DNA from: Gammaproteobacteria bacterium
Lineage (GTDB): Bacteria > Pseudomonadota > Gammaproteobacteria > UBA4575
Assembly: GCA_011523795.1 (NCBI GenBank)
Contig: WTFY01000010.1
Location: 1-64,000 of the forward strand
Direction: 5' to 3'
DNA length: 64,000 nt
This document shows, piece by piece, positions 45,567 through 59,528 of the stretch. Made by a program: the position numbers and the translations under genes. The notes beneath the pieces are model-generated. The model had not been told where the DNA came from and made no database searches. It saw only the letters and a list, made by a program, of their open reading frames with translations. Each line of letters starts with the position of its first letter. Position 1 is the first letter of the stretch.

Positions 45567-45848
45567 GTGATCAGGACGTTCGCCTGCCGGGAGACTGAGA
45601 AAATCTGGAACGGACATTCTTCCAAAAAGTTTCCAATGAATATCCAAAACACTGCCAGACGCAAGCTGAGGATATTGAACAACGCCCAAAACATGCAGGA
45701 TCTTCGCATACCCCCGTCTAACCGCCTGAAAGTTTTGCGTGGAACAAGAGCAGGCCAGCACAGCATGCGGATCAATGATCAATACCGCGTTTGTTTTGTC
45801 TGGCGACGAAGAGAAGCCTGTCAGGTTGAAATCGTCGACTACCACTAA
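45567..45848 (+). CDS. higB: HigB-family toxin (RelE-like mRNA interferase)
   Basis: 93 aa from the GTG at 45567, 8 bp after the operator palindrome. The HigB/RelE fold is recognisable from RKLRILNNAQNMQDLRIPP, NRLKVLRGTRAGQHSMRIN and the ending DQYRVCFVWRRREACQVEIVDYH (end: VEIVDYH). It cleaves mRNA on translating ribosomes in characterised members. Toxin precedes antitoxin, the reversed order typical of hig loci. Confidence 0.93.
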   Translation: MIRTFACRETEKIWNGHSSKKFPMNIQNTARRKLRILNNAQNMQDLRIPPSNRLKVLRGTRAGQHSMRINDQYRVCFVWRRREACQVEIVDYH

Positions 45849-45860
45849 GGAGAACTGACC

Positions 45861-46151
45861 ATGGCCAGGCTCAAGAACATTCATCCCGGCGAGGTGCTGC
45901 TCAGAGACTTCCTCGAGCCGCTGGGCATCAGCCAAAACAGGCTTGCGAACCGCATCTCCGTACCGCCTCGCCGGATCAACGAAATTGTTCTCGGTAAACG
46001 CGCCATCACGGCAGACACAGCCCTGCGACTGTCGCGTTACTTTGGCAATAGCGACAAGTTCTGGATGGGACTGCAGGATGATTACGACCTGGAAGACTCA
46101 AGGAACAAGATTGCCGGTACGCTTGAAAAGATTTCAAGCCATGCCGCATAG
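45861..46151 (+). CDS. higA: HigA-family antitoxin (XRE HTH)
   Basis: 96 aa with the HigA signature IHPGEVLLRDFLEPLGISQ and the HTH SQNRLANRISVPPRRINEIV. A strong ribosome binding site (AAGGAG) precedes the ATG, 12 bp after higB. It should neutralise HigB and repress from the 36-bp palindrome. Confidence 0.95.
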   Translation: MARLKNIHPGEVLLRDFLEPLGISQNRLANRISVPPRRINEIVLGKRAITADTALRLSRYFGNSDKFWMGLQDDYDLEDSRNKIAGTLEKISSHAA

Positions 46152-46434: not shown

Positions 46435-47169
46435 TCAGTATCCCAGAACGCTATAGTTGCCATCCACGATCAGATGAATGGAGACGTACAGTCCCAGCAA
46501 CGCGCACAGCACCCAAATGGAATTCATCGCGATAATGTAGGTGTACAACTCACGCCGGCTGATCAGAGTCTGTCTTTTGGCTACGAAGAAGCTGACCCAG
46601 TAAACCGAGGTGACGTAGGTCCATTGCCAGAACAGCATAACCCCGAGAATGCCTACAAAGAGAGCGGGCAGGAGATCGGCTGTGTACGCTGCGTAAAGGA
46701 TGAGTGTCGGAACCAGTGTTACAAAACCGTTGGCAATGTCCGCATTGTAGCCGAAGGTTCGGCGGTCCGAATAGGAGCTGTCATACTGAGAGTAGGTGGC
46801 CCAGACATCGGCCCAGAGCGTCGATGACAAAACCCGTGTCAAAGGAACTTTTGTGACAAGGAACTCGGTAATCGGTGAGCGTCCGGATTCACGCCTTCGC
46901 TCATGCCAAAACCCGGTGCGTGTCTCAATATAGTCCAGTCGAAAGTACAGGCATATCTCCCAATAACAGATCAGCAGGTTGACCGAGAAAAACAGGCTCA
47001 AAAGGAAATGGATGGCGTTCAGGTCCCCGTGAATGAAGTAACGCGTACCGATGCCCAGTAGTGCGAGGATCGTTATGGCAAGTAACGCGAACAGTCCCAC
47101 CGGTATCGTCAGGCCAGCCTGTTCTGCATCTTGCTCGGGCAGTGCTCGATCGGCGCGGTATTCGGGCAT
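46435..47169 (-). CDS. Membrane protein of the EXPERA/EBP type, candidate sterol delta8-delta7 isomerase
   Basis: 244 aa with five or six predicted membrane helices. It has the spacing W123-x2-Y126-x3-D130-S-x-Y133 that human EBP shows in WKEYAKGDSRY. An acidic residue (D144) follows 14 residues after D130, where EBP has its catalytic glutamate. YIIAMNSIW (211-219) parallels FVFMNALW of EBP. The EBP histidine-glutamate pair of helix 2 is only partly matched (E71 present, histidine absent). It is divergent from the sterol methyltransferase gene, which supports a sterol role. The assignment rests on by-eye comparison. Confidence 0.55.
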   Translation of the reverse strand: MPEYRADRALPEQDAEQAGLTIPVGLFALLAITILALLGIGTRYFIHGDLNAIHFLLSLFFSVNLLICYWEICLYFRLDYIETRTGFWHERRRESGRSPITEFLVTKVPLTRVLSSTLWADVWATYSQYDSSYSDRRTFGYNADIANGFVTLVPTLILYAAYTADLLPALFVGILGVMLFWQWTYVTSVYWVSFFVAKRQTLISRRELYTYIIAMNSIWVLCALLGLYVSIHLIVDGNYSVLGY

Positions 47170-47398: not shown

Positions 47399-48547
47399 TT
47401 GATTTTGTCACACCAGACATGTACCTTGAATGCGCTGGGCGAGACCCATCGAGCCAACATTTCTTGCAATACTCTACCCCTGGATATCGTGTCGACCCGT
47501 CAAAACAAACGCTCGGCGAGCAAGCCTACTAGACAATCAAAATCTCATTCTCTCGGGGATCTCGCACCGGATGAAGTGAAATCCGTGGTCGATCAATACA
47601 CCGGGTTCCACAATGCCAACCTGGAACACAGAAAAGAGAGCTACCAATTGCTCGTCAATCACTACTATGACCTGGTGACTGATTTCTACGAGTTCGGCTG
47701 GGGACGATCCTTTCATTTTGCCCCACGACAGCGGGGCGAGAGTTTCAAGGCGTCGCTGCTCCGACACGAGCATTTTCTTGCTGACCAGCTGTCCCTGAAA
47801 CCGGGGATGCAAATACTTGATGTGGGGTGCGGGATTGGTGGACCAATGGGCAACCTTGCCCGCTATTCCGGTGCCAGTTTTGTCGGCATCAATAACAACG
47901 CCTACCAGATCGAGCGCGCGAAAGAGCACACCCGCGATGTCCAGTCGTTATGCCGCTTCATCCGCGGCGATTACATGCAGATTCCAGAAAGTGACAACTG
48001 CTACGATGGCGCCTTCGCCATCGAGGCCACACCCCATGCGCCGAACAAAACCGCGGCATTCAAGGAGGTTTACCGCGTCTTGCGCCCAGGAGCCTGTTTT
48101 GCCGGCTACGAGTGGTGCCTCACCGAGAACTTCGATCCACAAAACCCGGAGCACCTGCGGATCAAGAAAGACATTGAGAGAGGGGATGGGCTGCCGGACA
48201 TCGCTAACACAGCGGAAGTCTGTATTGCCTTTCGCGAAGCCGGATTCGAAGTCCTGGAAGCCCGCGACCTTGCCCCTGAATCGCATCCGGATACACCCTG
48301 GTATCGTGCCTTGGAGGGTCGCGACATCAGTCTTACAAGCATTCCACGCACACCCGTCGGGCGTGCCTTGACGAACCTGGTGCTGAGGGTGGGTGAAAAG
48401 CTGCGGGTCTTCCCTGAGGCAACGGCCATGGTAAGCACACTGCTAAACCGGGCGGCGGATGCGCTGGCAGAAGGTGGCAAGTCGGGTATTTTTACTCCAA
48501 TGTATTTTTTCCTGGTCCGCAAACCCGGCACTCGTGAGACGGAATGA
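47399..48547 (+). CDS. Sterol C-24 methyltransferase (Erg6/SMT-like)
   Basis: 382 aa from TTG 47399; a GTG at 47489 would remove a non-conserved 30-residue leader, so the start is open. Signature regions of eukaryotic SMTs are all present: YEFGWG-x-SFHF (97-106), LDVGCGIGGP (SAM, 140-149), IEATPHAP (208-215; usually IEATCHAP), YEWCLTE (237-243) and GDGLP (262-266). The C-terminus GGKSGIFTPMYFFLVRKP matches Erg6. It should transfer methyl from SAM to a delta24 sterol side chain. It converges on the sterol operon, 128 bp apart. This is far closer to Erg6 than to bacterial ubiquinone or tocopherol methyltransferases. Confidence 0.92.
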   Translation: MILSHQTCTLNALGETHRANISCNTLPLDIVSTRQNKRSASKPTRQSKSHSLGDLAPDEVKSVVDQYTGFHNANLEHRKESYQLLVNHYYDLVTDFYEFGWGRSFHFAPRQRGESFKASLLRHEHFLADQLSLKPGMQILDVGCGIGGPMGNLARYSGASFVGINNNAYQIERAKEHTRDVQSLCRFIRGDYMQIPESDNCYDGAFAIEATPHAPNKTAAFKEVYRVLRPGACFAGYEWCLTENFDPQNPEHLRIKKDIERGDGLPDIANTAEVCIAFREAGFEVLEARDLAPESHPDTPWYRALEGRDISLTSIPRTPVGRALTNLVLRVGEKLRVFPEATAMVSTLLNRAADALAEGGKSGIFTPMYFFLVRKPGTRETE

Positions 48548-51600: not shown

Positions 51601-52068
51601 GCCCACAATGCGTGTGGTGTTCACGGATTTGATGGCGCCGTCATGGGTAAAAGTGACCCGCCCGTCTTCGACAGCCCGTGCCCGTGCGTGAAGAACAAAA
51701 TCGATATCCGATTCATTCCTGACTGCTTCACGCAGACTCTTTACGAGCAAGTCATGCTCACATGTCAGCCCGCGAGATCCTTCCGGATAAGGAAATATAA
51801 TTGGATCCGAACCGTCTTCCGGGAACAATACAAACCCTTTGCCCGTGGGGTCGCGGAGTTGCATATCGAGTCCGACTCCGACCTCGCGCAATACCCGAAC
51901 AGCGGGCGGATGCAGCCATTCACCTGCCAGGCGCAGTGAAGCTTTTGGATTTGCTTCAAGCAACAATACCCGGGCACCTTTTTTCGCATGTGCGAGCGCG
52001 CACACACAACCCACCGGACCCGCGCCAACGATGACTACGTCGTAGCGCTGGGCCGTAGCGGTACTCAT
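48676..52068 (-). CDS. Fusion protein: squalene monooxygenase + oxidosqualene cyclase
   Basis: 1130 aa in one uninterrupted frame. Residues 1-440 are an FAD monooxygenase of the squalene epoxidase type: VVIVGAGPVG (11-20), RLAGEWLHPPAVRVLREVG (46-64, the SQMO R-x-x-GE-x-L-x-P motif) and GDAAGHYHPMTAMGMTFG (283-300). Residues 470-1115 are an oxidosqualene cyclase: catalytic DCTAE (853-857), QW repeats (about 487, 881, 958, 1006, 1064), FGSYE and YVECTA (921-926). Squalene-hopene cyclases carry DxDD instead. One polypeptide should convert squalene to 2,3-oxidosqualene and cyclise it. The start overlaps the CYP51 stop (ATGA). The domains meet in a 30-residue linker (about 440-470). Confidence 0.93.
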   Translation of the reverse strand: MSTATAQRYDVVIVGAGPVGCVCALAHAKKGARVLLLEANPKASLRLAGEWLHPPAVRVLREVGVGLDMQLRDPTGKGFVLFPEDGSDPIIFPYPEGSRGLTCEHDLLVKSLREAVRNESDIDFVLHARARAVEDGRVTFTHDGAIKSVNTTRIVGADGQASIVRQSLGLSTNPRICSQTVGVIVKGVSLALKEYGHVLLGGPGPVLIYHLEEDCIRLIVDVPLDRTTPRDRIGFLLDSYTNLLPESLRSAFVQALRDGQFHVAANKLRPRVTYGSTHRVLIGDAAGHYHPMTAMGMTFGFGDALALAENEDFRSFAAKRYRATRAPAFLAMGLYEVFADHRAEAVALRHTIYRNARAYPAYRDRTVRLLACEDGSVLSMGFAFFGTVARAILGQIPRSCDRLAWRRARDTLHALAVRLVWLLRSIRLLYKVRNRGGEIDDQIWGTLAGVFQFSMPTKASASQPVRPREVVSIDARPAMKRAVAHLLDLQGEDGAWEGEMVWCPMLTAQYVLLHHIIEQPLEPGRRRRVLRSFEQTRLEGGSWGLHEHSPPHLFVTTLVYVAARLLGIGQDDPLIKPARQFLQAEGVVSIPSWGKFWLALLNLYDWRGVHAILPELWGLPRRIALHPSNWYCHTRLIYMAMAAVYPHRYQVPVSSTIASLREELFPQGFANVDFPSGRNLLRDADLYKRPSAWLRTGYVLAGLFERWHGKRLRARCMHAIVRQIKWELQTTSHTSISPVSGLLNILAVWLHDSNDPDIQQALARLDGWIWEDEEHGARVTGAKSASWDTGFSLQSLATVPEDGRVRNALGAGAGFLYRQQIGASFDGFREAYRNDPKGGWCFAGGWHGWPVTDCTAEAVAGIIAAERNSADTTVLADAIRFMLRGQNRDGGFGSYEAQRSIFGLEWLNPAEMFGDSMTEHSYVECTASCLVALAACKEHFPQLMDQTVRSAISQAGTWLRRTQGIDGSWRGVWGVQFIYGTLFGIRGLLAAGAPPSDPALRLACRWLLDRQHRDGGWGEHHSGCLTGRYVEHEESQVIQTAWALLALLEAGDPGWNAISRGIQYLLSTQNANGTWPKQDMAGVFFRTALLDYVLYRQYFPLHALGLYEQRRQTRLELTTSVTPATAATAG

Positions 52069-53474
52069 CGGAAGATACCCGCTCGTGAGCGACGCTGGTA
52101 GCGAAGCCTGCAGGGTTCCTCGGGACCGGTCACCCAGCTGCCGTAATTCGGGGCCGGAAACGCGGTGTCGAACTGGAAATCGAAGCGATCAAGCAGCACG
52201 GTCCAGATCGCTTTCAACTGCTGGTAGGCAAAATGCTTCCCCATGCACCGGTGTTTGCCGCCACCGAAACCGATCAACGTGTAGTGATGTTGCTTGTCCT
52301 CGCTTGCGGGAGGCGCAAACCGTTCCGGAAAGAAGCGCTCCGGATCGGCAAACAGGTGCGGTAACCGGTGGGATACAGCCGGTGACACCATGGCCAGCGT
52401 GCCCGCCGGCACGATGTAGTCCCCGTAATGCAAGGGTTTGAGTACCTTGCGGATCAGCAGGATCAGCGGCGGGTGCAGCCGCTCACATTCCCGCACGGCA
52501 TGCTCCAGCAATACCTGCTGCTTGAGACTTGAGTGGCTCATGTCTGCATTCTCTTGGTAGACGTCTTGCATCTCGGACCGGATCCGCGCCAGGTAGGAGG
52601 GTGCCCTGATGAGCTCCAGGGCTGTCCAGGTTGCGAGCACTGCACTCGTGTGCTGGCCTGCGAACAACACCGTCAGCAGGATGCCGGTAATCTCATCGTG
52701 ACTTAACGCGCGGCCATCCTTGTAACGGGCGTGCATGAGGGTCTGCATGAAATCGTCGGGCCGGACTCCGGAACGGCGGCGTTCCGTCATGACCCGACTG
52801 AAGAGTTCGGCCACTTTTTGCCGGGCCTGGTCGCGGGTGCGATGCGCTGCAGTAGGCAGCCTGGGAAGAAAAAATCCCAGGGTGTTGATGCCATTCTGCA
52901 GATCGTGGTAGGCCTCGGCAAAACCGGTGTCCACCTGGTCGCGGACTTCCTCCCCGATCAGGCAGCGACTGGCGATCTTGACCGTGAGTTCATTCATCGC
53001 GTGCGGCAGGTCGATTACCCCCGCCTCGCCGAGGCCATCGGTAAACCGGGATGTCTCCTCGAACATGATGCGGGCAAACCTGCGCATCGCAGATTCTCGA
53101 AGCGCCGGATACAGAAACCCCAACTGCTCGGCCATGAGCTCGGGGGAGATATCGTATGCCACGCCACGCCCGAAGATGGGTACCGTAAACTGATAGACAT
53201 CCTTGGCATTCAGCTGATCCTCGGGTGCCCTGAAATAGAAGTCGTGCGCCTCAGGCCCTGTGAAAAGTACAAAATTCCTGGGGCCGATACGGAACCGGAA
53301 AAGTTCGCCCTGCTCGTGCCAGCCGCGGCTTAACATCGAAACCGGATTCTTCAGAAATTCCGGCAGATGACCGATCAATGGCCAACCGCCCGCAAGTTTG
53401 GGTACGGATTTCGGTGTCTTCGGCGAGGGCTTTGCCGAAGGCAGGGTTGTCACACTGTGAGACTGCTGTGCCAC
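52065..53474 (-). CDS. Sterol 14-alpha-demethylase, cytochrome P450 CYP51
   Basis: 469 aa P450. CYP51-specific features: YQFTVPIFGRGVAYD (94-108, the B'-helix signature Y-x-F-x-x-P-x-FG-x-x-V-x-YD) and FAGQHTSAVLATWT (271-284, I helix). General P450 motifs: ECER (329-332), heme loop FGGGKHRCMG with ligand Cys410. The proline-rich N-terminus (LPSAKPSPKTPKSVPK) replaces a membrane anchor, and no ferredoxin domain is fused. It removes the 14-methyl of lanosterol-type sterols. Its ATGA overlap with the cyclase fusion couples their translation. A redox partner is not in the window. Confidence 0.93.
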   Translation of the reverse strand: MAQQSHSVTTLPSAKPSPKTPKSVPKLAGGWPLIGHLPEFLKNPVSMLSRGWHEQGELFRFRIGPRNFVLFTGPEAHDFYFRAPEDQLNAKDVYQFTVPIFGRGVAYDISPELMAEQLGFLYPALRESAMRRFARIMFEETSRFTDGLGEAGVIDLPHAMNELTVKIASRCLIGEEVRDQVDTGFAEAYHDLQNGINTLGFFLPRLPTAAHRTRDQARQKVAELFSRVMTERRRSGVRPDDFMQTLMHARYKDGRALSHDEITGILLTVLFAGQHTSAVLATWTALELIRAPSYLARIRSEMQDVYQENADMSHSSLKQQVLLEHAVRECERLHPPLILLIRKVLKPLHYGDYIVPAGTLAMVSPAVSHRLPHLFADPERFFPERFAPPASEDKQHHYTLIGFGGGKHRCMGKHFAYQQLKAIWTVLLDRFDFQFDTAFPAPNYGSWVTGPEEPCRLRYQRRSRAGIFR

Positions 53475-53482
53475 ACCCGCAC

Positions 53483-54589
53483 CTAGTAGACAAACGGCAG
53501 CATCGAGTATCGCACCCGCTGCGTATAGCGTCCCCAGAGCTCGCCATACTTGGTGCTGCAGCGTTGTTCGTCACGCCTCGAGCGGTGCCATAACAGGCCA
53601 GCAAGCCATGCGGGCAACAAATACGGCACCCAGGATGCAAGCCCTGTGGTAAGGGCGAACGCAAGGTAGATGCAGATCTCGCCGGTATAGTTGAGATGCC
53701 GTCCGATCCCCCAGAATCCGGACACCAGCAGACGCCCGTCCAGGGACCGGGCGGGTCGTCCCCAGATCGTGATGCCCGGGTCACGCTTGAAACGGTGCTT
53801 TTGCTCGTTGGCGCCACGAAAAAGCCAAAACCCGAAAGCAAACAACAGGACAATCATTACGGCGGTAGCGGGGGGCAGGGGTACCGAAGCGTGGACAAGC
53901 CACCACCCTGCGAAACAATAGAAAAAGGGCACCAGCACATAGTCTCCCCAAACCAGCATCCAGCCGAAGCGCTCACTGACCATGTCCCAGGTGTAGACCA
54001 TCCCGTGCTCGAACTGGAAGTAGTTGAGCACGTACAGGAAGGTGAAAACCTGATAGAGCACCATCGCCACGGTCAGGCTGCCGTAGGTTTCAAACTGCAC
54101 TACGGCAAACGACGCATTGAACAGGGCCAGGGCGATGAGCGAAGGACGATAGCTGAAAAGCTTCAAATCCACCCCGAGCCAGACCGGATTGTATTCCAGG
54201 CCAAAAAAGAAGCCGCGTACTATTCCCTGTGATGTACCCCGGGTCCGGGCGGCCCGGTAACACAGCCAGCCTGAAAGAACGAATGCAAATACATTCGAGA
54301 CCACGAACAAGGCGGCGAAGTGAGTGTACAGCATGGAAAGGCTAAACCAGCCGAAGGCTTGGGAGACGCCTGCCACAATAGCGGTCACCAGAAACAGGGC
54401 GAGTCCATTGAGCTTGTAGGTGTGTGAATTGCCCTCGAGGTCCGAGCCTGCAAGTTGACGTCCGGGCAGGAGCACAGACCCCGCAAACAGCGCGCTGAAA
54501 AATACCAGCATCATTACGGCTGCCTCGACCAGGGTGCTGGCCGACAGCATGGACAGCAAGAAATACGGCTCAGGCGCCTGCACTGCCAT
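53483..54589 (-). CDS. Sterol C-14 reductase (ERG24/ERG4-like family)
   Basis: 368 aa with about 8-9 predicted membrane helices. The two family signatures are plain: LLVSGFWGIGRHLNYTGE (287-304; eukaryotic LLVSGWWGxxRHxNYxGD) and HRSRRDEQRCSTKYGELW (335-352) followed by YTQRVRYSMLPFVY at the C-terminus. It reduces with NADPH the delta14 bond left by CYP51. The family also includes C-24(28) and C-7 reductases, so the position is inferred from its place directly upstream of CYP51. It overlaps sdmA by 20 bp. Confidence 0.88.
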   Translation of the reverse strand: MAVQAPEPYFLLSMLSASTLVEAAVMMLVFFSALFAGSVLLPGRQLAGSDLEGNSHTYKLNGLALFLVTAIVAGVSQAFGWFSLSMLYTHFAALFVVSNVFAFVLSGWLCYRAARTRGTSQGIVRGFFFGLEYNPVWLGVDLKLFSYRPSLIALALFNASFAVVQFETYGSLTVAMVLYQVFTFLYVLNYFQFEHGMVYTWDMVSERFGWMLVWGDYVLVPFFYCFAGWWLVHASVPLPPATAVMIVLLFAFGFWLFRGANEQKHRFKRDPGITIWGRPARSLDGRLLVSGFWGIGRHLNYTGEICIYLAFALTTGLASWVPYLLPAWLAGLLWHRSRRDEQRCSTKYGELWGRYTQRVRYSMLPFVY

Positions 54590-55667
54590 TCCCCGTCTCG
54601 CGTGCCAGATACTCCCGCCACTTGCGTACCGTCACGTTCTGGAAGGCTTTCACCACCGGATTGAACTCGATGGGAGGGGCATCCCAGTACATCTCGTAAC
54701 CCTTCTGCTCTGCTTCGACGGCTACCCGGTCCTGGTCGAGCAAGGGTCCGATCAGCAGACGGTTCGAGATCTTCAAAACCATGGTCATTGCGAAACGGGG
54801 GATATGTACCGGCAGCAAAGGAATCTTGAGCGATTTGAAGTAGAACAGGAAGAATACCCGGGTTGTGCGCTCGTCAATCGGCAATACGAACAGCCAGTGC
54901 TTGATGGCGTCATCGGTGTTGGACCACTGGTAGGGATATTGAAAGCAAAGCTCCATGTGATTGGTGTTTAACCGGTTGTGGTCGACAAACATCCCGGAGA
55001 TCGGTCCACGCCCGACCTGCGTGTCATAAGCGAGGTGCACGTTGTCCCCTACGGTCTCGCAACGGGTGAGCGTGGCATCTTCGAAAGGACGGTACCGGCG
55101 GTGGAGATGGGCATGGGTGAAGTCGCTCACGTTGTCGATCACCATCGAGTGGTGAGCCGACCAGGTGAAGCTGAGCGGAACACAGGCCCACCGTGCGGAT
55201 CCTTCGAGTTCGGGGATATCCGGGATCTGGCGCTCCTGCGCACGCTCCGGGTTGCCGGGAAACAACCATACCAGCCCGTAACGAACCTTCACGGGATAGC
55301 TTCTGATGGATGGTTTCGGGAGGTTCCCTCCATTACGTGCAGGCGGAAGATCGGCACGGCGCCCCTCTTCATCATACTGCCAGCCATGATAGGCGCATAC
55401 GAGCCGACAGCCCTGTACCTCCCCCAGGGAAAGTTTAATCTGGCGATGCGCGCAGCGATTCTCAAGCGCGTGAAACGAGCCGTCTGCCCCTCGAAACAGG
55501 GCGATGGAATGTTTCCAGAAAATGATCTCGACGACCGTCCCCGGCTTGACCCGGTGCACTTCTTCAACCGCGTACCAGTAATCCGGGTCCAGGCCTGTAG
55601 CACGCACTTGCTGGCGCAGGTTGCCGGCTTCCTCAAAGCCGGGAGGTGCTGCCTGCAACGGTATCAC
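54570..55667 (-). CDS. sdmA: Rieske oxygenase of sterol C-4 demethylation (SdmA-like)
   Basis: 365 aa. Rieske 2Fe-2S ligands: C-A-H in RCAHRQIKLS and C-x2-H in CAYHGW. The mononuclear iron site is DNVSDFTHAHLH. SdmA of Methylococcus capsulatus is a Rieske oxygenase that oxidises C-4 methyl groups, replacing eukaryotic ERG25. The neighbour encodes the partner SdmB, with a 4-bp ATGA overlap, and the whole operon is sterol-related. Ferredoxin/reductase partners are not in the window. Confidence 0.88.
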   Translation of the reverse strand: MIPLQAAPPGFEEAGNLRQQVRATGLDPDYWYAVEEVHRVKPGTVVEIIFWKHSIALFRGADGSFHALENRCAHRQIKLSLGEVQGCRLVCAYHGWQYDEEGRRADLPPARNGGNLPKPSIRSYPVKVRYGLVWLFPGNPERAQERQIPDIPELEGSARWACVPLSFTWSAHHSMVIDNVSDFTHAHLHRRYRPFEDATLTRCETVGDNVHLAYDTQVGRGPISGMFVDHNRLNTNHMELCFQYPYQWSNTDDAIKHWLFVLPIDERTTRVFFLFYFKSLKIPLLPVHIPRFAMTMVLKISNRLLIGPLLDQDRVAVEAEQKGYEMYWDAPPIEFNPVVKAFQNVTVRKWREYLARETGNGSAGA

Positions 55668-56812
55668 ATCGAACCTCCCCCGGGACTGACCGGTATGCCC
55701 TGGTTTGCCAAGCTGCTTTCCGCTTGTCTCACGGCGCTCTCACTGGGACGTTTTGCAAGCGGATTCGTAATCACGTTGCGCTGGTAGTAGTGAAAGGCGT
55801 AGGCCTCGTGCACTGCAGCGCGGATACTGGTAGGCTGGAAGCCCAATTCACTTCTCGCCTTGCCGGTGTCTGCGTGACGGCATTTTTTCAACAGGCGGAT
55901 GGCACCTGGCGTGAACCGCTGCGGAAAATCCGGATGAAAGCGGCTCAGGTAAAAACTCGCCACTTCCGAGAAAGCGAGCATCATGTGGGAGGGAATCCGC
56001 CGGGCCGGTCGCGGAACCCCTGAAACCTCTTCGAACAGGTCCAGGATCTCGGAGATGGTTTTGTATTCGCTGCTGAAGATGTACTTTTCGCCCGAACGCC
56101 CCCGGTGCATGCACAACAGGTGCCCCTCGACAATGTCACGCGCCGCAACAAACTCGAAACCGCCATCCACGTAGGCGCGAAGCTTACCGCCGGTGTAGTC
56201 GCACAAGGTCCTCCCCAACCGGGAGGGAAAATAATCGGCCCCTCCAATCACTGCACAGCACGTAGCAACAATGACGTCCTGGCCCTGCGCCACGGCACGC
56301 CAGCACTCGTGTTCAACGAGTGCCTTGCTGCGCTCATAAGGCATCGTGCGTTCCATGGGATAGAACTGCATCGTCTCGTCACTGGGAGCAGACGGGTTGT
56401 CCAGGTTGTAACCGACCGCACTGAACGAGCCCGTCACCACCACGCGTCCGGCCTGTGCCTCGCGCGCCGCCTGCAGCACGTTGCGGGTGCCGAGTACGTT
56501 GCACTCGTATACCTTCCGGCGATAGGCCCGATTGCCTTCGATGGTCGAGATCATGGCCGCAACGTGATAGACGCCTTGACAGCCGGCGACCGCCCGCCGC
56601 ATGGCATTCAAATCCCGGATGTCGCCGAACACGCGTTCAACCTCAAGACCTTCCAGTGCCCTGTTGTTGTCCTCGTTTCTCAGCAACACCCGTATCCGGG
56701 TGCCGTCCTTAAGCAGCCTACGCACGAGATTGGCGCCCACATGACCGGCCGAGCCGGTAACGAAAACGGGCGGTGTCGAGGCGTCGGCAGATGTGCTCAA
56801 ATCTGAGGTCAT
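55664..56812 (-). CDS. sdmB: NAD(P)-dependent sterol dehydrogenase/decarboxylase of C-4 demethylation (SdmB-like)
   Basis: 382 aa extended SDR of the 3-beta-HSD group: Rossmann motif VTGSAGHVGANLV, catalytic YERSK (Y-x3-K). SdmB works with SdmA in bacterial C-4 demethylation by oxidising the 3-hydroxyl and releasing the C-4 carboxyl. First gene of the five-gene operon. A modest ribosome binding site (AGGAT) lies 6-7 nt before the ATG. Other 3-beta-HSD-like activities are possible, but context favours SdmB. Confidence 0.86.
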   Translation of the reverse strand: MTSDLSTSADASTPPVFVTGSAGHVGANLVRRLLKDGTRIRVLLRNEDNNRALEGLEVERVFGDIRDLNAMRRAVAGCQGVYHVAAMISTIEGNRAYRRKVYECNVLGTRNVLQAAREAQAGRVVVTGSFSAVGYNLDNPSAPSDETMQFYPMERTMPYERSKALVEHECWRAVAQGQDVIVATCCAVIGGADYFPSRLGRTLCDYTGGKLRAYVDGGFEFVAARDIVEGHLLCMHRGRSGEKYIFSSEYKTISEILDLFEEVSGVPRPARRIPSHMMLAFSEVASFYLSRFHPDFPQRFTPGAIRLLKKCRHADTGKARSELGFQPTSIRAAVHEAYAFHYYQRNVITNPLAKRPSESAVRQAESSLANQGIPVSPGGGSM

Positions 56813-57167: not shown

Positions 57168-59528
57168 TTGACATATTCTCACGAAACACAGCCAGAGACG
57201 GATGCACCGCACGAGCGCATCTCCCAGTTGAGTGCGGCAATCCTTCGCATCAGTGCGAGCCTCGATCTTGAGACCGTATTGCACGAGATCGTGGAGAGTG
57301 CCCGGGTACTCACCGATGCCCGCTATGGCGCAATCACCACGATCGATCGCTTCGGGCAGCCACAGGACCTCGTCTTTTCCGGCCTCACTCCTGAAGAGCA
57401 CCAGAAACTGGTGGACTGGCATGAAGGTCCTCAACTCTTTGAACACTTCCGTGACAAACCTGGTGTCCTGACACACGAGGATATAAGCAGCTACGTCCGT
57501 TCACTGGGCTATTCGACAGAGTTGCTGCCTTCGACAGCCTTCACGGAAACCCCGATGCATCACCTGGGTGTACAGGTCGGCAGCTTCTTTCTTGGCGGAA
57601 AAGCGAACGGCGGGCTGTTCACCAGCGAAGACGAGGAAATCCTGATGCTGCTTGCCTCGCAGGCGGCGACGGCCATTGCCAACGCGCGGACGTACCGGGA
57701 CGAGCAGAAGGCACGGGCCAACCTTGAAGCCCTGGTCGAGACCTCGCCGGTGGGTGTTGTGGTCTTCGATGCGAAGACCGGGCATCCGGTGTCCCTCAAC
57801 CGGGAAGCGAAACGCATTGTCGAGAGCCTGCGCACACCGGGTAGCACTTCCGAACAGCTGCTGGAAGTGATTACCTGCCGGTTCGCCGACGGCCGCGAGT
57901 TTCCCCACGACAATTTCCCGTTAACCAAGATGCTGAGCACTGCCACGACCGTGCGTGCAGAGGAGGTCGAGCTTTCGATCCCTGACGGTCGAAGCGTCAA
58001 CACCCTGATCAACGTCACGCCGATCCCTTCAGCAGACAGCGAAGTGGAGTCGGTGGTTGTCACCATGCAGGACCTGGCGCCATTCGAGGAACTGGAGCAG
58101 TTGCGGGCAGAATTTCTGAGCATGGTCAGTCATGAACTGCACATGCCGCTGACCTCCATCAAGGGTTCAACCGCGAGCGTGTTGGATACCCAGCCCGTCC
58201 CGGACACGGCCCAACTGCTCCAGTTCTTCCGCATCATTGATGACCAGGCCAATCACATGCGGGGGGTAATCAGCGATCTGCTGGATGTGGGGCGTATCGA
58301 TTCAGGCACGCTGTCGGTCCTGCCCGTACCCTCTGAGGTGGCCGGTCTTGTGGACCAGGCCAGGAACACTTTCCTGAGCGGGGGCGGCCGGCACGCCGTC
58401 CTGATCGACCTGCCGCAGGACCTGCCGCAAGTGATGGCTGACCGGCAACGCATCATCCAGGTCCTGAATAACCTGCTCTCCAATGCTTCCAAGTACTCCC
58501 CCGAATCGGCGCCTATCGGCATTTCTGCAATTCACGAGGACATGCACGTAGCCGTCTGCGTCGCTGACGAAGGCCGGGGCGTGCCCGCCGAGCAGTTGCC
58601 GCGCCTTTTCCGCAAGTACACGGATATCGGTCATGACGGGCGAAACAGGGGACTTCGGGGGTCCGGCCTGGGACTCGCCATCTGCAAGGGGCTGGTCGAG
58701 GCCCATGGGGGCCGAATCCATGCCACGAGCGGCGGGGTGGGCCAAGGCATGCAGATCACGTTCACCCTCCCGGTGTTCGAGGAAGCAGCAGGCCGTCCCA
58801 GAACGGATATCACCCGAAGCCCGTCACGTTCCAGCCAGGATCGACCTGCACCGGTGCCCATCCTCGTGGTGGACGATGACCCGCAGATGCTGCTCTACCT
58901 TCGGGACGCCCTGGCAACGGAAGGTTATTCCCCCGTCGTGACCAGCAATCACCGGGAATTGTCCCGGATATTCCAGACGGAGAAACCCCATCTGGTCCTG
59001 CTGGACCTGGTCCTGCCAGAGACGGACGGGATCGAATTGATGAAAACCGTCCCTGAACTGTCAGAGGTTCCGGTCATCTTCATTTCCAGCTACGGAAGGG
59101 ACGAAACGATTGCCAGGGCGCTGGAAAGTGGAGCAGCGGACTACATTGTCAAGCCGTTTTCACCAACGGAACTGATTGCTCGAATCAAGGCTGCCCTTCG
59201 CAGCCGAAATGAACCGGAACCTTTCCTGCTGGGGGATCTTGCCATCTACTACGACCAGCACAAGGTGACCCTGGCCGGACACCCTGTACAGTTGACCGTC
59301 ACGGAATACGAAGTGCTATGCATGCTTTCCGTCAACGCGGGAAAAGTCACCTCGTTCGATTCGCTGCTGCACAAGGTATGGCACAAAAAGCCCTCCAGTG
59401 ACCCGAGGCTGGTGCGCACCATCGTCAAAAACCTCCGCCGCAAGCTCGGAGATGACTCGAACAAACCCGCTTACATTTTCAGTGAACGCGGGATCGGCTA
59501 TCGCATGGAGGACACGGACCCCTCTTAG
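57168..59528 (+). CDS. One-protein two-component system: GAF-PAS-histidine kinase-receiver-winged helix
   Basis: 786 aa soluble protein. GAF domain (about 20-178), PAS-like (185-305), HisKA with His322 (FLSMVSHELHMPLTS), HATPase (NNLLSNASKYS, DEGRG, GSGLGLAICKGL, to about 535). A linker leads to a receiver (565-680; phosphoacceptor Asp613 in LLDLVLPETDG) and an OmpR-type winged helix (690-786; VTEYEVLCMLSVNAGKV, RTIVKNLRRKLGD). TTG start with GAGGA about 7 nt upstream. Sensor, relay and DNA binding are thus in one chain. Absence of membrane helices implies a cytoplasmic signal, perhaps a ligand of GAF. It is divergent from the sterol operon. Confidence 0.92.
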   Translation: MTYSHETQPETDAPHERISQLSAAILRISASLDLETVLHEIVESARVLTDARYGAITTIDRFGQPQDLVFSGLTPEEHQKLVDWHEGPQLFEHFRDKPGVLTHEDISSYVRSLGYSTELLPSTAFTETPMHHLGVQVGSFFLGGKANGGLFTSEDEEILMLLASQAATAIANARTYRDEQKARANLEALVETSPVGVVVFDAKTGHPVSLNREAKRIVESLRTPGSTSEQLLEVITCRFADGREFPHDNFPLTKMLSTATTVRAEEVELSIPDGRSVNTLINVTPIPSADSEVESVVVTMQDLAPFEELEQLRAEFLSMVSHELHMPLTSIKGSTASVLDTQPVPDTAQLLQFFRIIDDQANHMRGVISDLLDVGRIDSGTLSVLPVPSEVAGLVDQARNTFLSGGGRHAVLIDLPQDLPQVMADRQRIIQVLNNLLSNASKYSPESAPIGISAIHEDMHVAVCVADEGRGVPAEQLPRLFRKYTDIGHDGRNRGLRGSGLGLAICKGLVEAHGGRIHATSGGVGQGMQITFTLPVFEEAAGRPRTDITRSPSRSSQDRPAPVPILVVDDDPQMLLYLRDALATEGYSPVVTSNHRELSRIFQTEKPHLVLLDLVLPETDGIELMKTVPELSEVPVIFISSYGRDETIARALESGAADYIVKPFSPTELIARIKAALRSRNEPEPFLLGDLAIYYDQHKVTLAGHPVQLTVTEYEVLCMLSVNAGKVTSFDSLLHKVWHKKPSSDPRLVRTIVKNLRRKLGDDSNKPAYIFSERGIGYRMEDTDPS

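Follow-up and report, generated by a model that had tools for sequence, protein, structure and literature searches.

A predicted Erg6-type sterol C-24 methyltransferase beside a sterol operon in a gammaproteobacterial genome

Sterol genes of the window

The stretch of DNA analyzed here (the window) covers 64,000 nucleotides of a gammaproteobacterial contig (WTFY01000010.1 of assembly GCA_011523795.1, positions 1 to 64,000). On its minus strand, genes for SdmB-like and SdmA-like proteins, a C-14 reductase, CYP51, and an epoxidase-cyclase fusion overlap or nearly abut one another, forming an operon convergent with the plus-strand gene of a predicted sterol C-24 methyltransferase (SMT; Table 1). 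As a route to sterols the cluster is nearly complete, with counterparts to all genes of the six-gene msb cluster that Mohanty et al. described in 2020 from a Melophlus gammaproteobacterial symbiont (MT026193; PMC7074536): SdmB-like msbA, SdmA-like msbB, sterol reductase msbC, CYP51 msbD, fused epoxidase/cyclase (SMO-OSC) msbE, and SMT msbF. The same gene set recurs in 53 related loci. The msb cluster belongs to another organism and is reported to have no sterol-related genes at either end (PMC7074536), whereas the locus studied here carries an EBP-like gene next to the SMT gene.

Table 1. Sterol-related genes and neighboring features of the window
Feature	Position	Strand	Basis or remark
TonB-dependent receptor-like protein, 994 aa	42415-45399	+	Assigned by eye; weak homologue in locus L048
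HigB-like toxin and HTH antitoxin pair	45567-46151	+	
EXPERA/EBP-like membrane protein, 244 aa, candidate sterol double-bond isomerase	46435-47169	-	Divergent from SMT gene
Predicted sterol C-24 methyltransferase (SMT/Erg6 type)	47489-48547	+	Pfam Sterol_MT_C and Methyltransf_11, relatives' starts, tree, alignment
Squalene epoxidase (N-terminal, SE/FAD) and oxidosqualene cyclase (C-terminal) fusion, 1130 aa	48676-52068	-	Pfam SE, FAD_binding_3, SQHop_cyclase_N, SQHop_cyclase_C
CYP51, sterol 14-alpha-demethylase	52065-53474	-	Best solved structures all CYP51 (7jj1, E = 1.9e-107)
ERG24-type sterol C-14 reductase	53483-54589	-	Pfam ERG4_ERG24; bacterial Delta14-sterol reductase 4quv, E = 2.1e-67
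SdmA-like Rieske oxygenase (C-4 demethylation)	54570-55667	-	NCBIfam 4beta-methylsterol monooxygenase SdmA
SdmB-like NAD(P)-dependent reductase (C-4 demethylation)	55664-56812	-	NCBIfam SdmB
Hybrid histidine kinase (GAF, PAS, HisKA, receiver, OmpR-type DNA-binding)	57168-59528	+	Divergent from sterol operon

The epoxidase-cyclase fusion is also found in 56 of 79 related loci. Its cyclase half has human lanosterol synthase as the closest solved structure (1w6k, E = 2.5e-129) and keeps the catalytic DCTAE motif. Val occupies the position of human Val453, which we take to fit lanosterol over cycloartenol; Ala and His occupy those of human Thr381 and Cys449, which presumably allow parkeol or a mixture. 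The cyclase product may be lanosterol, with parkeol or a mixture as alternatives. The SdmA-like and SdmB-like proteins score 390 bits (E = 8.6e-117) and 303 bits (E = 2.8e-90) against their NCBIfam models, below the cut-off of 600 in both cases. On another contig of the genome lies a gene of the squalene/phytoene synthase family (PF00494, 180 bits; G000:C22:124334-125209). Among the related loci, an alphaproteobacterial one (L031, 11107-14565) has the cyclase part of its fusion spread over two adjacent frames, reflecting a frameshift or an assembly error.

Other genes accompany the cluster. The hybrid histidine kinase may regulate it; kinase homologues with 51-53% identity lie near the clusters of Chloroflexota loci L072, L075, and L079. 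The toxin-antitoxin pair and the TonB-dependent receptor-like gene likewise stand beside the sterol genes. The contig also carries, some 145 kb from the cluster, a second ERG4/ERG24-family reductase gene overlapped by that of a short-chain dehydrogenase (L100, 8820-10684; G000:C18, about 199 kb); the two products are candidates for sterol 3-keto reduction and for ring or side-chain reduction.

The methyltransferase and its relatives

The preliminary description had placed the gene at 47399-48547, starting from TTG. This frame is real, and encodes 382 aa from TTG 47399 or 352 aa from GTG 47489; it is the start codon that probably has to be moved, to the GTG. In locus L012, the nearest relative, GTG is the sole in-frame start for the SMT, loci L021 and L029 have no start codon upstream of the equivalent position, and conservation among relatives begins there, approximately 59 residues ahead of the YDLVTD motif. 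A search of the surrounding sequence turned up no promoter-like site. Domain analysis placed a SAM-binding Methyltransf_11 domain (65.6 bits against a cut-off of 21.2) N-terminal to Sterol_MT_C (PF08498; 73.8 bits against 21.7), and these Pfam scores rule out a chance motif match.

The motif regions YEFGWG, IEAT-HAP, YEW-T, and GDG-P had been reported from the sequence beforehand, and all are indeed present, reading YEFGWG, IEATPHAP, YEWCLT, and GDGLP. In alignment with yeast Erg6 and Arabidopsis SMT1/2, the blocks YEFGWG..FHFAP, LDVGCG, IEAT.HAP, YEW..T, GDG.P, and the C-terminal IFTPMYFF correspond, and the protein carries the SMT signature (YE[FYW]GWG, LDVGCG, IEAT-HAP, YEW..T, G[DN].P) as judged against the yeast and Arabidopsis SMTs together with 98 bacterial rows. 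Its identity is 52% to Arabidopsis SMT1, 43% to yeast Erg6, and 38% to SMT2; of these references, Erg6 and SMT1 were verified as Sterol_MT_C proteins. The yeast and plant enzymes have the family, the motifs, and the C-terminal domain in common with the window SMT, which differs from them in having Pro for Cys in IEATCHAP and in sitting beside a bacterial operon. A PDB search returned no close SMT structure and no solved eukaryotic SMT.

This Pro had also been pointed out in the preliminary description; the residue is correct, and its position is 212 in TTG numbering instead of 210-211. As a peculiarity of the window SMT, however, it was ruled out by the 99 SMT rows, in which Pro is usual for the bacterial clade. 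The commonest form is IESMPHAP (49/99, counted with D or N following), and IEATPHAP accounts for 14/99; the three rows from myxobacteria have Cys at this site, as do most SMTs present as second copies. On the alignment, therefore, the Pro is a feature of the clade. We know of no published test of the exact Cys-to-Pro change in IEAT-C-HAP.

Phylogenetic analysis by a quick tree, which included three eukaryotic references only and whose reach does not extend to deeper branching, placed the window SMT in a starred clade of 80 bacterial rows (SH-aLRT 98) that contains neither the eukaryotic references nor the other methyltransferases of the same genome. The protein groups with sterol methyltransferases, the point addressed by the phylogenetic check proposed in the preliminary description. 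Second or third SMT copies stand beside the first in loci L016, L018, L022, L023, L025, L026, L047, L068, and L071, with three SMTs in a row in L047; these extra copies are mostly 43-49% identical to the window SMT and approximately 61% identical in L068 and L071.

An EBP-like protein encoded next to the SMT gene

The protein encoded divergently from the SMT gene matches no Pfam family, including EBP (PF05241), although 10 of 26 aligned relatives match Pfam EBP weakly (best E = 0.082). Its AlphaFold model (pLDDT 76) nonetheless finds human EBP, the sterol Delta8-Delta7 isomerase (6oht, 8w0r), as its best fold match, the two structures leading with Z scores of 9.5 and 8.9 over a next row of 5.9; EBP is also the best Foldseek row, but at E = 0.28. 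Other sequence similarity is barely detectable: the protein's profile had no significant match in the PDB, nor did hhalign against a single EBP sequence give one (probability 0.8%).

What the two proteins have in common is a residue spacing, W-x2-Y-x3-D-x2-Y-x10-[DE] followed by N-x2-W, which matches Trp101, Tyr104, Asp108, Tyr111, Asn193, and Trp196 at the intervals seen in human EBP, whose sequence was checked against PDB 6oht. In EBP, Trp101, Tyr104, Tyr111, Glu122, Asn193, and Trp196 are important for binding ligands or for activity (PMC6549186). The pattern occurs in 32 of 9225 ORFs, all of the EBP-like family, although these are mutual homologues, so that its rarity does not amount to independence. 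Glu71, Asn216, and Trp219 are invariant in the family and, as in human EBP, an invariant Glu lies in the first conserved membrane helix. The EBP catalytic set (His76, Glu80, Glu122, Asn193, Trp196) is nevertheless incomplete: Asp144 replaces Glu122, and Ile67 takes the position of the proton donor His76, in a His76/Glu80 register that was set by eye.

The gene follows the SMT in its distribution, being present in four of five SMT-bearing relatives versus none of 50 SMT-lacking ones, and of 28 additional genomes with an SMT in which it had not been seen beside that gene, 16 have it. Fold, residue spacing, and co-occurrence together suggest that the protein is of EXPERA type and acts in the sterol pathway, where it would most likely isomerize a double bond, an assignment to which we give roughly even chances. 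The Asp in place of Glu122 and the Ile at the His76 position argue against a plain isomerase.

The available portions of the texts of Mohanty 2020, Kelly 2022, and Brown 2023 on such clusters do not describe an EBP-type neighbor; in that of Kelly 2022 (PMC9531527), no EBP-type gene is named and the word "isomerase" is absent. Sterol isomerases in bacteria are in themselves no novelty, since C-8 isomerase homologues have been mentioned for Calothrix (PMC10202945) and Methylotuvimicrobium (PMC13277303).

Host, distribution, and proposed function

The source genome is a draft of 2.07 Mb in 22 contigs, 97% complete, and the window belongs to a 435-kb contig that is bacterial: Obg, MurJ, an IleRS-type class I tRNA synthetase, and GlyS are all encoded inside the window. 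A draft in 22 contigs could in principle contain mis-binned sequence, and a host or algal SMT could have entered it as contamination. This explanation has virtually no probability left, and eukaryotic contamination can be ruled out, given the length of the contig, its bacterial housekeeping genes, and an overlapping operon of bacterial type with SdmA/SdmB; moreover, congeneric genomes have the same cluster, and the SMT falls in a bacterial clade of the tree.

Among the relatives searched, Sterol_MT_C is present in all five members of the genus but is missing from the 14 further genomes of the family and the 36 of the class. Sampling 398 genomes across the phylum yielded it in none of the other 397. 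The relatives G002, G003, and G004 carry loci L012, L024, and L025 (contig coordinates). A single scan recovered 79 loci with close SMTs from ten phyla: Pseudomonadota, Nitrospirota, Chloroflexota, Gemmatimonadota, Rhodothermota, Binatota, Acidobacteriota, Verrucomicrobiota, Actinomycetota, and Myxococcota. Starred branches of the quick tree imply at least four label changes for Pseudomonadota and at least three for Nitrospirota, counts to which second SMT copies contribute and in which mis-binned contigs may be involved. Kelly et al. reported horizontal transfer of such clusters (PMC9531527), and this topology agrees with it. Judging by titles and partly by our reading of sample names, many of the other related loci were recovered from metagenomes of sponges or corals, the nearest cluster relatives being sponge- and coral-associated, and the host, a marine gammaproteobacterium, is likely sponge-associated.

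Similar clusters have been published. Kelly et al. in 2022 reported ERG6-carrying clusters from 115 of 537 Ircinia MAGs in ten phyla, with strong purifying selection on core cluster genes and signs of horizontal transfer (PMC9531527). As here, an ERG24-CYP51-ERG7 core is flanked by ERG6; in contrast to the window cluster, ERG2 is named in some of those clusters and SdmA/SdmB are left unannotated. Brown et al. in 2023 expressed 24 metagenomic bacterial SMTs, of which 20 alkylated sterols in vitro (8/10 symbiont and 12/14 environmental) and three made 24-isopropyl sterols (PMC10070321). Those enzymes resemble the window SMT in being Erg6-type proteins of uncultured bacteria, many of them sponge symbionts, in clusters with sdmA/sdmB, and the methods of that study also mention fused SMO/OSC homologues (PMC10070321). 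They differ from the window SMT in having been assayed.

In the pathway that we infer, one fused protein would epoxidize and cyclize squalene, and the cyclase product would then undergo C-14 demethylation (CYP51), C-14 reduction (ERG24 type), and C-4 demethylation (SdmA/SdmB). The window SMT would act on the Delta24 double bond of the sterol and alkylate it at C-24; its activity, its Delta24 sterol substrate, the number of methyl groups added, and the order of these steps are inferred. Domains, alignment, tree, operon context, co-occurrence, bacterial origin, and the active homologues of Brown et al. (PMC10070321) converge on this identification, and the reading put forward in the preliminary description, that of a bacterial gene for an Erg6-like sterol C-24 methyltransferase, is supported by domains, tree placement, and the surrounding sterol operon. 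Membership of the SMT family is established, as are the content and conservation of the cluster, and the protein is very probably an Erg6-family SAM-dependent sterol C-24 methyltransferase that carries out the side-chain step of the adjoining operon's pathway. Points that speak against this reading are the inactive tested homologues, the Pro for Cys, the sub-cut-off SdmA/SdmB scores, the uncertain cyclase product, and the role proposed for msbF.

That last point raises a different target for the enzyme. The Melophlus cluster has been connected with sarasinosides, a group that includes methoxylated members, and msbF was suggested to serve their O-methylation rather than C-24 alkylation (PMC7074536), so that the window protein could tailor a sponge saponin such as sarasinoside, by O-methylation or otherwise. 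We consider this very unlikely: the full SMT signature and the Sterol_MT_C domain are in place, sponge-symbiont homologues C-methylate desmosterol in vitro (PMC10070321), and the cluster extends across many phyla and hosts, beyond saponin-bearing sponges. The enzyme might instead be decayed or inactive and kept by drift, as four of the 24 tested homologues were inactive on desmosterol or 24-methylenecholesterol, the sole two substrates offered (PMC10070321). An intact open frame with every motif block kept, orthologues persisting in ten phyla, and the strong purifying selection on core cluster genes reported by Kelly et al. (PMC9531527) make such decay very unlikely.

Collectively, the SMT and its cluster are a further example of a kind published between 2020 and 2023. 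The novelty implied by the preliminary description is not supported, as a 2023 study had already demonstrated functional bacterial SMTs, among them cluster-encoded ones of sponge symbionts (PMC10070321); its caveat about C-24 alkylated sterols as biomarkers is right, but was already that study's own conclusion. These sterols are used to mark eukaryotes in old rocks, and each bacterium with a full route weakens this use (PMC10070321). To this, the locus adds a defined gammaproteobacterial genus, with an SMT in five of five sampled genomes, whereas the family's other sampled genomes lack one. Its fresh lead is the EBP-like neighbor, a candidate for the missing ring double-bond isomerase step. 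Tentatively, and with the odds somewhat against it, this protein may represent a bacterial EXPERA branch, a ring isomerase with an altered catalytic set that is cluster-borne across sponge-symbiont phyla and would enable Delta7-type C-24 alkylated sterols in single bacteria.
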